In this document: one piece after another, positions 30,969 through 34,738 of the stretch
Numbering within the stretch: position 1 is the stretch's first letter
Layout: each line of letters opens with the position of its first letter
From: Methylococcales bacterium
GTDB taxonomy: Bacteria; Pseudomonadota; Gammaproteobacteria; Methylococcales; Methylomonadaceae
DNA: 34,738 bases
Assembly: GCA_028707085.1 (NCBI GenBank)
Contig: JAQTUW010000029.1
Coordinates: 1-34,738, forward strand
Direction of reading: 5' to 3'
Position numbers and translations under genes: made by a program
The notes under the pieces: generated by a model
The model's input: the letters and a program-made list of their open reading frames with translations, nothing else
The model's database searches: none
Told to the model about the DNA's origin: nothing

Positions 30969-31469
30969 GAGCCGTTTTAAAAAATTTTGCTTTTTCTACA
31001 ATGACTTAGAGGCGATTTTCTTTTTAGAAAAATTGCCAAAAACCCTTGAAAATAAAGACAATACATATCAAATGCTTATTTATCCTTGTTGAGGTAAAGT
31101 ATATTTGCAAGAATTAGGCGTTTCTAATGCTGAATTCCGACCCGGTCAGCCTGTTGACTATCCAACAATTTTTTTTGACGGTTAAGTTGAACTGATTTGC
31201 GAGAGAGATAGACTTGGTTCGCAGTATTTGCGATTTTGGACGGGGTTAGCGCCATAAGGCGTTCTCAAGACATGGACAACCACGCCCGCCTTTTGCTTGT
31301 GTGCTGTTTGTAGGAATAGCCTGGATCCATACCGGGGTGGGGGTGGGGATGGGTCGGTTCTGATTATTTCGAGACGAGCCATGGCCGGCTTTCCGCCAGG
31401 AGCCTGTATAATGGATTGCGTGTGCCGGCGGCTGTTACGAAGCTTGCTTCAAGGAAAAGCAAAAACAGT
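30969..31469. other. Gene-poor region between the dcw promoter and the GST-like gene
   Basis: About 500 bases with no gene I can support. The left third (to about 31110) is AT-rich. The right part is mixed, with a small hairpin at about 31248-31261 (CGCC with GGCG) and a G-run at about 31338-31352. A short minus-strand open frame (31182-31382) shows no family features. A TATAAT at about 31406-31411 on the plus strand has no partner gene. The stretch could be the trace of a dispersed or decayed element. Confidence 0.4.
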
Positions 31470-32117
31470 TTAGACAGTAGAAATCTGGATACCCGGCATA
31501 CCCACATAACCCGGTAAAGCCTGAATTCGGGCAATCCAGGCCTGCACATGCGGCAAACCATCAAGACTCACACCGCCTTCAGGCGCCAGAACCACATAGG
31601 GATAACAGGCTACATCAGCTATAGTCGCTCGACCGACCGCCAGCCAGTCATGCTTTTGCAATTGCTGCTCCAGCACTGTCAGACCGGCTCCGCCCAGTGC
31701 CTGACATTCAGCCAGGTTCCAGGGACGATTGAATAACACCGCGGCGCGGGCGCGCGCCAACCCATACAATAGCTCATTCTCCGCCATTGCCAGCCACTGC
31801 ATGGTTTCAGCCATCGATTCCGCCGCTAGTGGCAGCCATTGTTCATCGGCATATTTTCGGGCCAGATAGACGAGAATGGCCGCAGAATCCCAAATCAGCC
31901 TGCCATTGTCATCAAGCACAGGTATCTGCCCGCGCGGATTGATTTGCAGGAATGCCGGCTGCTTGTGCTCTGCTTTGAACAAATTGACCGGAATTATCTG
32001 GTATTTCAGATTTAACAGCCCGCAAAACAACCGAATTTTGTAACAATTTCCGGATAACTCCATATCATAAAGCCTGATAGGAGAGCCAATGTCCTGATTT
32101 TGCTCAATGGAATCCAT
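31470..32117 (-). CDS. Glutathione S-transferase family protein
   Basis: The 215-residue product has the thioredoxin-like GST N-terminal domain: IRLYDMELSGNCYKIRLFCG (14-33) with S22 as a possible catalytic serine, the cis-proline motif INPRGQIPVLDD (59-70, P66), and WDSAAILVYLARKY (76-89), where D77-S78 contact the glutamyl part of glutathione. The C-terminal helical domain carries the N-capping box region ATIADVACYPYV. The substrate cannot be told. The start at 32117 follows the DUF2782 stop codon by 2 bases; a GTG at 32147 would overlap that gene by 28 bases and is less likely. The two genes form a small operon. Confidence 0.88.
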   Translation of the reverse strand: MDSIEQNQDIGSPIRLYDMELSGNCYKIRLFCGLLNLKYQIIPVNLFKAEHKQPAFLQINPRGQIPVLDDNGRLIWDSAAILVYLARKYADEQWLPLAAESMAETMQWLAMAENELLYGLARARAAVLFNRPWNLAECQALGGAGLTVLEQQLQKHDWLAVGRATIADVACYPYVVLAPEGGVSLDGLPHVQAWIARIQALPGYVGMPGIQISTV

Positions 32118-32119
32118 AT

Positions 32120-32458
32120 TTACCAGTCCCATTCGAACAGATTCCACATATTGATGTTGGTATTCTTGTCCATGCCATTTTTTCTAACGTCCATCTGTCC
32201 GTCGCCATTGGTATCCAGCATGTAGTATGGCGGCCCGACCTGCGGAATGATTTTTATCATATACAACTGACCGTTGCGGCGATACTCCTGGATAGTATCC
32301 TGCCCTTTACGGGTAATGGTAATGTCTGGCTCCATTTCCTCACCCGATTGTACCGGCATCGGCAGATCCGGCGGCTCCGGTACTGCAGCGGGCTCATCTC
32401 CTGCCAAACAGACTACGGGCAATAACAGCAATAGGCTGGCAACAAAGCTATAACGCAT
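32120..32458 (-). CDS. Secreted DUF2782 family protein
   Basis: The 112-residue product has a signal peptide (residues 1-19, cut near CLA-GD), a short proline-rich segment and a compact domain: EPDITITRKGQDTIQEYRRN, then LYMIKIIPQVGPPYYMLDTN. This matches what I know of DUF2782, a small periplasmic family of gammaproteobacteria with no assigned role. The C-terminus (NINMWNLFEWDW) is rich in tryptophan. It precedes the GST-like gene by 2 bases. In pseudomonads DUF2782 genes tend to lie near polA and thrB, which are not here. Confidence 0.82.
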   Translation of the reverse strand: MRYSFVASLLLLLPVVCLAGDEPAAVPEPPDLPMPVQSGEEMEPDITITRKGQDTIQEYRRNGQLYMIKIIPQVGPPYYMLDTNGDGQMDVRKNGMDKNTNINMWNLFEWDW

Positions 32459-32587
32459 ACCGATCTCTAGAAATCAATGGTTGGGCGGCAATGATAATAC
32501 AGTTTTATACACACTGTAATAATTATGCGGCTGTGAGCCGGCGGGCGGCAACAGTAGAAAACCGAAACGATGCGATCACTCCGGTTT

Positions 32588-32637
32588 AAAAAAAAGACTG
32601 ATATAGTCCCGCTTTATGAAAACGGGATATACCAGCC
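32588..32637 (-). terminator. Rho-independent terminator after the 20-residue-repeat protein gene
   Basis: On the minus strand a long imperfect stem (GGCTGGTATATCCCG pairing with CGGGACTATATCAGTC) is followed by eight T residues (32595-32588). It starts about 10 bases after the stop codon at 32647. Confidence 0.88.
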
Positions 32638-32646
32638 TTTGGTTTT

Positions 32647-33996
32647 TTAAGCCTGATTTCGCAAATATTTCTCAACACCTGTTGTTCTGGCAATAACAGC
32701 ATCGCTGTCTTGCAGACTTTGCCGCGCCAGATATTTGACTACGCCTGAAACAGCATTATCCTTGTTCAGGGTGGCCTGTTTATTGAGATACCGGGAGACG
32801 CCAGTGACTTCTGCAACAACCATTTCCTGCGACTCCTGCCTGGCCAGATATTTTGCAACCGAGCTGATTTCAATCGCCGGTTTTTCGGCCAGCAACTTCT
32901 TGATCAGATATTTGCTGACGCCCGTCAGTTCCGGGGACTGTCTGGCCAGAATTGCCTGTTTCGCCAGATAGCGGGCAACGCCGGTCAAGGGCTCTGCCTG
33001 ACTTTGCAACTGAATCTGTCTGGCAATATATTTTGCGACGCCGGTTACCTTAGGCTGCCGGCCTTCCCGAGCCGCAAGTTTTGCCAGATAGATGGCAACG
33101 CCCGAACCTTCAAATTCTTCCTCGCTATTCACTTCGACCATACTCTCTTCGTTCTGAACCGCTTGAGCTTCAAGCCTTGCCTGCTGAATTCGGGCTTCCT
33201 CCTCTACATATCTGGCAACCAAGGCCGCCGCCGCCGCCTTTCTAGCTAGCAAGGACTGCTCGGCAAGGAATTTCTCGACCCCTGTCAAAGGTGTCTGCTC
33301 AAGGAACAGACGCTCCTGCTGCTGCAAATATTTACTGACACCTGTCATGACAGGCGCATCTTTTGCCAATTGTTTTTGGCGGTTGACATATTTGGCGACC
33401 CCGGTGGAGACAGGTGTTTCTTTCGCCAGCAAATCATGCTTCAGTACGTATTTGGCCACGCCTGTTGCAACTGGCGCATCGGCATCCAGCACGTGCTGTC
33501 TGGTCAAATATTTGGCGACACCGGTCACAGTATGTTCTTCCCGGTCATGCCGGGTAACATATCTGGAGACACCGGTTATCGGCGTTTCTCTAGCCAATAT
33601 ATCTTGTCTGAGCATATATTTGGCCACCCTGGTAATCGGATTGGTCTGTTGTTGGGCAAGATACTTCTCAACACCGCTAATCGCCGGCTGCTGTTCGATT
33701 ATTGCCTGTTCCGCAAGGTTTTCGGAAGCGGCCTCTGCCGCCGCCAGCTCCGCATCGATCTCAGCCTGTAACAATGCTCTTTCCTGTTCCTGCCGGGCGA
33801 GATATCTGGCCACTCCGGTTAAATTATCCGCTATTTGCGGTTCAAGCTTTTGCAGGTAACGGGCAACACCCGTCAGTCGGCTGTTTTCCTGACTATCCGG
33901 TTCCTGATTATCGGCAACACGGGTTGCCGATGGGGTGTCGAAGAAAAAGGTCGGCAATATCCCGATTAAGCTATTCATCAAACTGTTTTTCTTCAT
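32647..33996 (-). CDS. Multi-repeat protein with 19 TGVxKYL motifs, function unknown
   Basis: I cannot assign this 449-residue protein to a named family. The start at 33996 is chosen for AGGAG at 34006-34010, 9 bases upstream; the reading frame is open to 34089. After a short N-terminus with a modest hydrophobic stretch (LMNSLIGILPTFFF, 6-19), almost all the protein is made of T-G-V-x-[K/R]-[Y/F]-[L/I/V/M] units. They start at residues 42, 60, 107, 122, 141, 158, 178, 198, 218, 238, 258, 298, 318, 338, 358, 378, 398, 417 and 439. A full unit is about TGVAKYLARQxxLAKExPV: a short amphipathic basic helix closed by proline. An Ala/Glu-rich, repeat-free stretch lies at 71-100. The first 20 residues might act as a signal peptide, so location is open. 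A multivalent scaffold or filament is my inference. It has its own terminator and a small secreted-protein gene upstream. Confidence 0.88.
   Translation of the reverse strand: MKKNSLMNSLIGILPTFFFDTPSATRVADNQEPDSQENSRLTGVARYLQKLEPQIADNLTGVARYLARQEQERALLQAEIDAELAAAEAASENLAEQAIIEQQPAISGVEKYLAQQQTNPITRVAKYMLRQDILARETPITGVSRYVTRHDREEHTVTGVAKYLTRQHVLDADAPVATGVAKYVLKHDLLAKETPVSTGVAKYVNRQKQLAKDAPVMTGVSKYLQQQERLFLEQTPLTGVEKFLAEQSLLARKAAAAALVARYVEEEARIQQARLEAQAVQNEESMVEVNSEEEFEGSGVAIYLAKLAAREGRQPKVTGVAKYIARQIQLQSQAEPLTGVARYLAKQAILARQSPELTGVSKYLIKKLLAEKPAIEISSVAKYLARQESQEMVVAEVTGVSRYLNKQATLNKDNAVSGVVKYLARQSLQDSDAVIARTTGVEKYLRNQA
32650..33873 (-). repeat. 60-bp-period coding repeats encoding the TGVxKYL units
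   Basis: Nineteen related segments, exactly 60 bp apart between residues 158 and 398 apart from one degenerate position at 278. The DNA of the core motif varies in third positions (ACGCCGGT, ACACCTGT, ACCCCGGT and others on the complementary strand are all used in corresponding places), so the amino-acid pattern is far better kept than the DNA. This points to old copies under selection rather than recent slippage. Confidence 0.9.
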
Positions 33997-34110
33997 TTGA
34001 GAATACTCCTGAATGTTTTGATTATATGCATGACGACCATATGGCTGTTTGCATTTATGAATTGGCCAGGGAGTCCGATACAAACTCACCCACCCTATCT
34101 CGATTCCAGC

Positions 34111-34368
34111 CTATCTGGCTGCCTCACTGCTGTAGATCACCTTGGGCTGAAAATTTGCCGCCGGATATCTGCCGTCAACCTCTACCGCCTCCCCCGTCGC
34201 TTTGGGTTCGCATGGCGATGCAGATGCGGCTGCCTGGCTTACGGCAGGTTCGCTACTGTAAATCACTTTGGGCTGGAAGTTTGACGCCGGATAGTCCTCG
34301 GCGTATGCAACGGAGGCTGTCAACAAAGAAGCCATAAGGACTGCCCGAGTCAATTGAGTGTGTTTCAT
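34111..34368 (-). CDS. Small secreted protein with a duplicated YPAxNFQPKVIYSSE motif
   Basis: This 85-residue protein begins with a clear signal peptide (MKHTQLTRAVLMASLLTASV, cut near AYA-ED). The mature part is only about 60 residues and consists of two copies of YPA[S/A]NFQPKVIYSSE (residues 26-40 and 68-82), joined by an Ala/Ser linker with one cysteine. I know no function; short F-x-P-K-V-I-Y motifs of this sort occur in small exported proteins of some gammaproteobacteria, but that is memory, not a database result. AAGGGG lies just upstream of the ATG. The TGVxKYL repeat gene starts 114 bases downstream in the same direction, with no terminator seen between, so the two may share a transcript. 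A small inverted repeat stands in its leader at 34383-34397. Confidence 0.82.
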   Translation of the reverse strand: MKHTQLTRAVLMASLLTASVAYAEDYPASNFQPKVIYSSEPAVSQAAASASPCEPKATGEAVEVDGRYPAANFQPKVIYSSEAAR

Positions 34369-34382
34369 ATTGTTCCCCTTAC

Positions 34383-34397
34383 CTTATCTCTGATAAG
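34383..34397. promoter_or_regulatory. Inverted repeat in the leader of the small secreted-protein gene
   Basis: CTTATC-TCT-GATAAG is a perfect 6-bp inverted repeat with a 3-base centre, 14 bases upstream of the ATG at 34368. It could be an operator or a small leader hairpin near the ribosome site. Evidence is limited to symmetry and position. Confidence 0.4.
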
Positions 34398-34420
34398 CAT
34401 GTTTCAATAAGTTAGCATGT

Positions 34421-34528
34421 ATTTGGAACCGGGGCTTTCCACTGCAAATTTCGGCCGTTGGGATACTGCCGCGACACCTGCATGGATGCATTCACGGCGT
34501 CCTCCAGCGGAAAGCCCCGGTTCCAAAT
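34421..34528. repeat. 108-bp element bounded by perfect 20-bp inverted repeats (MITE-like or palindromic intergenic element)
   Basis: ATTTGGAACCGGGGCTTTCC (34421-34440) is repeated in inverted form, without mismatch, at 34509-34528. The 68 bases between include a smaller palindrome (TGCAT-GG-ATGCA) flanked by GCCG and CGGC, so the whole can fold into a branched hairpin. It contains no gene. Size, terminal inverted repeats and intergenic place fit a non-autonomous mobile or dispersed palindromic element. No clear target duplication was seen at its ends. Confidence 0.7.
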
Positions 34529-34566
34529 CGCCATATATGGAAATTTATCGCCAAGCGTTTAATCCG

Positions 34567-34594
34567 GGTTCTTGCCGCCAATGCAGCAAGAACC
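34567..34594 (-). terminator. Hairpin after the transketolase gene, possible terminator
   Basis: GGTTCTTGC and GCAAGAACC form a perfect 9-bp stem with a 10-base loop, 18 bases after the transketolase stop codon. There is no T tract, so it may stabilise or weakly terminate the message. Confidence 0.45.
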
Positions 34595-34612
34595 TTCGAC
34601 ACTATAACTTAA

Positions 34613-34738
34613 TTAAAGCACCGCTTCGACATTTGCGACCACATTTTCGACCGTAAAGCCAAACTCCTTGAAGAGCTGGCCGGCCGGAGCCGATTCGCCG
34701 AAACGATCCAGACCGACGATTCTGCCCTGGCTGCCCGC
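34613..34738 (-). CDS. tkt: Transketolase, 3' end only
   Basis: Only the last 41 codons lie in the window. The translated end reads [20 protein letters not shown], then [13 protein letters not shown] and stop, which matches the conserved C-terminus of transketolase (FGESAP...LFxEFGFT-V-x-NVV). The enzyme moves two-carbon units between sugar phosphates with thiamine diphosphate in the pentose phosphate and Calvin-type pathways. The reading frame enters from the right edge. Confidence 0.92.

Follow-up and report, generated by a model that had tools for sequence, protein, structure and literature searches.

The window considered here, a stretch of 34,738 nucleotides that constitutes contig C29 of a 3.0 Mb assembly, contains near its end a gene encoding a protein (SOL) built almost wholly of copies of a short motif, TGVxKYL. 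An earlier note based on the letters alone recognized no named family with this repeat. This raises two questions: does the protein belong to a known family, and with what cellular process is it associated? The window genome has a PF02461 gene (pMMO/AMO; pmoA), and therefore it is taken for the genome of a methanotroph. Its genus is taken to be Methylomonas, because the position of the match in another member, G025 (C1:4835421), coincides with that in the record named Methylomonas sp. LW13 (L153, which has the anchor operon). To our knowledge, the way in which ribulose monophosphate (RuMP) methylotrophs hold toxic formaldehyde low while routing much carbon through it is an open question. The features of the locus are listed in Table 1.

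Table 1. Features of the SOL locus and of the second unit gene in the same genome
Feature	Location	Strand	Remarks
SOL, multivalent TGVxKYL repeat protein, 449 aa	32650..33996	-	stop codon 32647-32649
Exact 20-residue register, twelve motifs	32785..33525	-	residues 158-404; slot 278 empty
Hydrophobic N-terminal segment	33940..33984	-	residues 5-19; conserved (SLMNSL.G)
YPA protein, 85 aa, two YPA[SA]NFQPKVIYSSE repeats	34111..34368	-	signal peptide apparent, by eye
Transketolase, C-terminal end	34613..34738	-	cut by contig end; read by eye
Inverted repeat, 24-nt arms	34421-34444 / 34505-34528		96% complementary, 60 nt apart
DUF2782 gene (PF11191)	32120-32458	-
Second unit gene (anchor)	contig C60, window genome		beside transaldolase

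The repeat protein of the window

The frame 33996-32647 of the minus strand is open over 449 residues with no internal stops, and its methionine at position 33996 is matched by methionine in all 33 full or near-full aligned sequences (the window and 32 others). The strict motif TGVx[KR][YF][LIVM] occurs 13 times in these 449 residues. The nineteen motifs reported in the earlier note are recovered only with a relaxed pattern that additionally admits SGV, TRV, SSV, ALV, and one I in place of K/R. In 5,000 shuffles of SOL the strict pattern never occurred more than once and the relaxed one never more than three times. The observed counts are far above these values, and thus the description of the gene as encoding a 449-residue repeat protein is confirmed.

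Motifs at residues 158, 178, 198, 218, 238, 258, 298, 318, 338, 358, 378 and 398 follow the 20-residue periodicity that had been noted, the unit at 278, then called degenerate, being a vacant slot. The spacing is 18, 47, 15, 19 and 17 residues before this region and 19 and 22 after it. Synonymous codons have drifted between the copies, as was claimed: the 13 strict copies use four Thr, four Gly and three Val codons. At the N-terminus, residues S5, L6, M7, N8, S9 and G12 are conserved at 0.97-1.00 (33 sequences). A possible role of the segment formed by residues 5-19 is contact with the membrane or with a partner.

Conservation of the motif

In an alignment of 33 sequences, the window and 32 relatives bearing ten or more motifs, the mean conservation of the seven motif columns is 0.93, 0.91, 0.98, 0.81, 0.82, 1.00 and 0.74, compared to 0.64 elsewhere. 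The picture is unchanged in a smaller alignment of 18 sequences. Four of the 17 possible pairs in the latter were compared, and in all four dN is lower in the motifs (0.09-0.14) than in the linkers (0.27-0.53); dS is only rough, as synonymous sites are near saturation. These data support purifying selection acting on the TGVxKYL motif, in agreement with the suggestion that it is the amino acid pattern that is selected.

Search for known families

No family in NCBIfam (E up to 1) matches the repeat protein or the anchor protein described below, and the search against PDB sequences yielded no significant match (best E 0.49 for SOL and 0.22 for the unit profile). Three Pfam candidates were considered and rejected. 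Zein (PF01559) has helical repeats of 20 residues; its score for SOL, 21.5 bits, is below the cut-off of 24.6. U1snRNP70_N (PF12220) and ATP_synth_reg (PF14960) exceed their cut-offs on the whole protein (32.2 bits vs. 23 and 30.7 bits vs. 25, respectively), but no single stretch passes in either case, and the scores were read as sums of weak repeat matches. The diatom pyrenoid component DPC2 (PF25195) gives 17.7 bits for the L225 relative, with the cut-off at 70. No Rfam family matches positions 31000-34738 of the window at gathering thresholds, and none of 23 pattern matches in viral contigs was confirmed.

No paper with TGVAKYL was found in a literature search. Among the matches listed for RuMP, scaffolds, metabolons, condensates, intracytoplasmic membranes and mxa clusters, where subscription papers are thinly covered, nothing was on point. 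The parts of the M. capsulatus genome paper (PMC517821) and of a later Methylococcus paper (PMC8527097) that describe a duplicated RuMP cluster make no mention of such a gene. As judged by the sequence searches, TGVxKYL repeat proteins are a conserved family without a name in Pfam, NCBIfam or PDB sequences, and the initial impression that no named family explains the repeat holds.

Phylogenetic distribution

The earlier note had named a lack of homologues with the same register in related genomes as grounds for refutation; this test did not refute it, as homologues are numerous. SOL has matches (E 0.01 or better) in 45 of 61 genomes, its own and 60 relatives; within the genus, 32 of the 36 other genomes have a long match (hand count), which is in two pieces in G033 and G015. 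With a unit profile (A1) built from 15 unit stretches, matches were obtained in 253 of the 311 genomes that represent the order, in 43 of its 50 genera. In a sample of the class the profile matches six genomes out of 369, three from the order and three from family f10, and within f10 itself 54 of 57 genomes. We equate f10 with the Methylophaga family, because named Methylophaga loci share the arrangement of genes. In eight of the 54 matching f10 genomes (hand count) the match is solely in a giant ChpA-like frame, considered below.

When 84,980 species were scanned with two narrow patterns, TGVE[RK]Y[IL][RE][NK] and [NKQ][LK]TGV[EA]KY[IL], 130 matches were obtained, of which 103 were confirmed and 80 loci were kept. 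Records with a genus name belong to Methylophaga, Methylomonas, Methylobacter, Methyloprofundus, Methylovulum, Methylomicrobium and Crenothrix; the titles of the others go no further than Methylococcaceae, Piscirickettsiaceae, Gammaproteobacteria, Pseudomonadota or proteobacterium.

Several loci appear to be out of place taxonomically. In loci L034 and L035 (G052:C1 and G038:C285), which come from two genomes that belong to separate families, the encoded repeat proteins and anchors are the same, and the contig shared by G052 and G038 is probably a contaminant. A Methylococcales-type anchor locus was found inside a Methylophaga-family genome (L104, G686:C210), and a PF02461 gene occurs in a genome of the same family (G689:C103); these may be binning errors or cases of transfer.

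Association with genes of the RuMP cycle

The 80 named loci were picked by the units alone. In 68 of them a RuMP gene (HPS, PHI, TKT, TAL or FBA) lies on the same strand within 1.5 kb. The remaining 12 comprise eight loci whose start is within 531 bases of the upstream contig end, three mxa-cluster anchors (L168, L174, L177) and one orphan (L141), so that 71 of the 80 sit in RuMP or mxa clusters. By our estimate, which is not a computed control, such closeness to a RuMP gene would occur by chance for well under 1% of genes. Enzymes were labelled by similarity to reference genes matching NCBIfam models (TIGR03128 for HPS, TIGR03127 for PHI, TIGR00232 for transketolase, TIGR00874 for transaldolase, TIGR01520 for aldolase), and the labels were checked on examples.

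A common gene order in Methylococcales is hps-phi-tkt-anchor-SOL-tal-fba (L219, L220, L229, L230); the same order occurs in further named loci, where PHI is unlabelled. In Methylomonas it is split in two, tkt-YPA-SOL and hps-phi-tkt-anchor-tal-fba. The 29 Methylophaga-type loci have no anchor; 27 of them have the order hps-SOL-tal-hps, and the other two are cut by contig ends. In genus g4 of family f4 the anchor directly precedes hps (L033, L221), being split between frames in L221. Locus L217 consists of two tandem hps-phi-tkt-SOL473 units followed by hps-phi-tkt-anchor-tal-fba.

The RuMP gene nearest to the repeat gene in the 68 linked loci is mostly that of transaldolase (46) or transketolase (21), with HPS in one case. 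CP12 modulates Calvin-cycle enzymes, and the preference for two neighbours would suit a regulator or inhibitor of this kind, in which binding of the repeated helix would alter the activity of one RuMP enzyme. However, up to 19 copies of the motif, an anchor and a second repeat across the membrane arguably exceed the needs of an inhibitor, and we consider this explanation distinctly unlikely. Operon membership could also reflect mere co-expression.

Unit genes with no labelled RuMP neighbour are L141, L223-L225 and L227. Three of the encoded proteins (L141 5339-6160, L223 9782-10552, L225 9442-10269) share a Cys/His-rich C-terminal stretch, CQA.T..G.QC...H, and these repeat proteins have no Pfam match over the cut-off.

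The anchor protein and the methanol dehydrogenase cluster

The second unit gene of the window genome encodes a protein with an apparent signal peptide, two repeats of the type YPAA[DN]FQPKV, a hydrophobic helix with lysines after it and four TGVxKYL units, in this order. The signal peptide, the membrane helix and the topology were judged by eye. From the positive-inside rule we infer that the units of this anchor are in the cytoplasm and the YPA repeats in the periplasm. Repeats like those in the N-terminal half of the anchor are also present in the YPA protein, which is encoded directly upstream of SOL. Pattern and profile searches of the window genome found no third unit locus; two pattern matches were rejected, one (C60:46807) because the frame appeared spurious by eye and the other (C51:41129) because of a stop codon within the motif.

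In some Methylomonas genomes a second anchor is encoded, which has three units and whose periplasmic part is divergent. In all seven loci with both flanks (L212-L216, L174, L177) its gene is located between mxaD and mxaB beside mxaFJG, and in an eighth locus, which is cut (L168), mxaD is upstream. In L174 the assignments of MxaF, MxaJ and MxaG are backed by TIGR03075, TIGR03870 and TIGR03872. The mxaD and mxaR genes of this locus have no NCBIfam match and mxaB matches response regulators; these three names are presumed from the gene order. The window genome seems to have no anchor in an mxa cluster. The linkage to RuMP and methanol dehydrogenase genes, the anchor with the same units and the adjoining YPA protein all go beyond the earlier note.

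Co-occurrence with HPS

In the class sample HPS scores over the curated cut-off in six of 369 genomes, and these are the same six that bear the units. As only two clades are involved, this does not amount to six independent events. In all, 332 of the 369 genomes match HPS at E 0.001; the weaker matches are regarded as different enzymes from the same superfamily. In the order (n=311, HPS at E 1e-30, cross-tabulated by hand), 237 genomes have both HPS and units, 20 have HPS only, 16 have units only, and 38 have neither. Each of the 16 genomes with units only is a draft in at least 40 contigs.

There are also genomes with HPS and no units, and thus the units are not needed for RuMP. Eight of the nine HPS genomes of family f6 are of this kind, and the ninth (G052) has units on the suspected contaminant contig, which encodes the same proteins as a contig of G038. 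No units were found in 60 genomes of family f206, in a search that had no positive control; a member of this family, G1070, has HPS. HPS over the cut-off is also present in two genomes outside the unit search, G878 and G1080. In loci L237-L240, L242 and L243, which belong to f6 and f206, hps is apart from tkt and fba, and transaldolase adjoins hps in L243 only. In G087 (L241) the genes tkt, tal, hps and phi are clustered, yet no unit was detected.

The presence of pmoA in the window genome had at first suggested a scaffold of intracytoplasmic membranes. This idea was demoted, since Methylophaga keeps the gene in a RuMP operon, whereas PF02461 was found in one of 57 genomes of the family. The frequency of units there, 54 of 57, thus points to a link with RuMP and not with pMMO membranes. 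A related possibility is that the units bind each other or the membrane surface and thereby coat intracytoplasmic membranes, determining their shape or spacing, while the operons would provide co-expression only. The anchor and the linker do carry the same units, their N-termini are hydrophobic, and a passage of PMC9445010 states that the biogenesis of methanotroph intracytoplasmic membranes is unknown. However, the linker stays in the Methylophaga RuMP operon although 56 of 57 genomes of the family have no PF02461 match, and such a coat seems unlikely. It is highly probable that TGVxKYL proteins are functionally linked to formaldehyde assimilation.

Predicted structure and the ChpA-like kinase

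The AlphaFold model of SOL, computed with 17 orthologues, has mean pLDDT 57 and pTM 0.21. It has a short helix for most units, no helix at some of them (141, 158), and a long helix at 240-290. In the model computed on 13 Methylophaga sequences (pLDDT 61.6, pTM 0.21), there is an N-terminal helix at 7-18 and one helix per unit. TGVxKYL proteins are predicted, from these models, to be separate helices on a flexible chain. Of the basic amphipathic helix ended by proline that was proposed for each unit, the short helix is retained in most units, but the chain is near neutral (57 K+R vs. 54 D+E), the helical moments span a range of 0.18 to 0.67 among the 19 units, and proline terminates only part of the units.

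The 20-residue regularity does not appear to build a solenoid, because the low-confidence models show separate helices and no tertiary fold. In addition, the Methylophaga proteins and those of several other genera depart from this spacing. Both observations speak against the fibrous assembly that had been one of the initial suggestions; the other, a multivalent scaffold, is the most natural reading of the predicted chain. Low structural confidence could also be expected of functionless low-complexity drift or a chance repeat. This reading is contradicted by the data, namely the spread of units over the genera of the order, purifying selection on the motif and the retained operon position, and it is hardly credible.

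The strict motif is absent from the RuMP enzyme frames of the named loci (77 HPS, 48 PHI, 26 TKT, 65 TAL, 28 FBA). A ChpA-like kinase with Hpt, HATPase, CheW and receiver domains contains six TGVxxYL motifs (L226 1947-7673, plus strand; also L105 and L103). The Methylophaga ChpA-like protein has 1,909 residues with the domain order Hpt-HATPase-CheW-receiver, and several motifs lie between its Hpt domains. Giant unit-matching frames of about 1,800-2,065 residues recur across many genomes of the Methylophaga family. The motifs in the kinase are not explained by binding of RuMP enzymes alone. They would fit a general localisation tag, a helix that binds a polar or membrane hub, with different carriers bringing RuMP enzymes, methanol dehydrogenase and ChpA to it; as the RuMP enzymes have no strict motif, the units would then act as adapters. 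We found no candidate hub, and the concentration of the named loci in RuMP or mxa clusters does not favour this explanation, which we regard as improbable.

A possible mechanism

The explanation that we favour is a membrane-tethered multivalent linker gathering RuMP enzymes, and we put the chances for and against such scaffolding about level. SOL would be the cytoplasmic linker of a two- or three-part system of formaldehyde assimilation, in which many short TGVxKYL helices on a flexible chain would come after a hydrophobic or amphipathic N-terminus, and threonine may serve as the helix cap. The anchor would expose the same helices to the cytoplasm and its YPAxNFQPKV repeats to the periplasm. 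Binding of the helices might involve at least one abundant oligomeric RuMP enzyme whose gene shares the operon (HPS/PHI, transketolase, transaldolase or aldolase). Many sites on the linker, combined with several sites per enzyme, could produce a network, and the anchor would fix it at the inner or intracytoplasmic membrane, the entry point of formaldehyde. In some Methylomonas, the anchor from the mxa cluster would connect this network to the side of methanol dehydrogenase. The benefit would be fast capture of toxic formaldehyde.

A more elaborate variant, which is tentative and on balance doubtful, is an assembly that spans the membrane: the YPAxNFQPKV repeats would hold methanol dehydrogenase or its partners at the periplasmic face or at that of the intracytoplasmic-membrane lumen, and the TGVxKYL helices the RuMP enzymes at the cytoplasmic face, formaldehyde being captured while crossing, and the linker would form a pyrenoid-like layer under the membrane.

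By analogy, SOL would function most like the linkers of pyrenoids or carboxysomes; membership in either was not found. The pyrenoid linker EPYC1 of Chlamydomonas similarly combines a repeated short helix, a flexible chain, a motif shared with membrane proteins and a tie to carbon fixation. The Rubisco-binding motif of EPYC1 contains tryptophan, and membrane-anchored proteins with the motif accompany it. Multiple short helical motifs on an otherwise unfolded chain are seen in the low-confidence prediction for SOL, whereas there is no tryptophan among its 449 residues. The motif is unrelated, the protein is bacterial, and the process is formaldehyde fixation by RuMP instead of Rubisco, the binding to an enzyme being only presumed for SOL. 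The carboxysome scaffold CsoS2 is likewise a multivalent repeat protein gathering an enzyme. The same is true for CcmM (PMC8580825). Unlike these, the system considered here has a membrane anchor, and the Pfam and PDB searches revealed no sequence similarity.

Encapsulation peptides of bacterial microcompartments (PMC12339742) are also short helices on a disordered linker, and the helix at the N-terminus of the Methylophaga protein resembles them in kind; in SOL, however, the helix is present in up to 19 copies within a dedicated protein that has no enzyme domain. Artificial Mdh-Hps-Phi fusions and complexes channel formaldehyde in synthetic methylotrophy, according to part of PMC8879981. They also join the source of formaldehyde with its sink, but are man-made, whereas the present case is a natural candidate that would cross the membrane. 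With an unnamed conserved family in the middle of the RuMP operon and anchors both there and in the mxa cluster of some Methylomonas, the idea of a natural assembly is directly testable, and the TGVxKYL linker is a candidate scaffold for synthetic methylotrophy.

Other features of the window

The transketolase end in the window resembles the C-terminus of the transketolase in L046, and transketolase occupies the same place in L081 and L083. The inverted repeat lies between the transketolase and YPA genes and is possibly a small mobile element or a terminator. The DUF2782 gene comes after SOL both here and in the labelled Methylomonas loci; it is likely a bystander.
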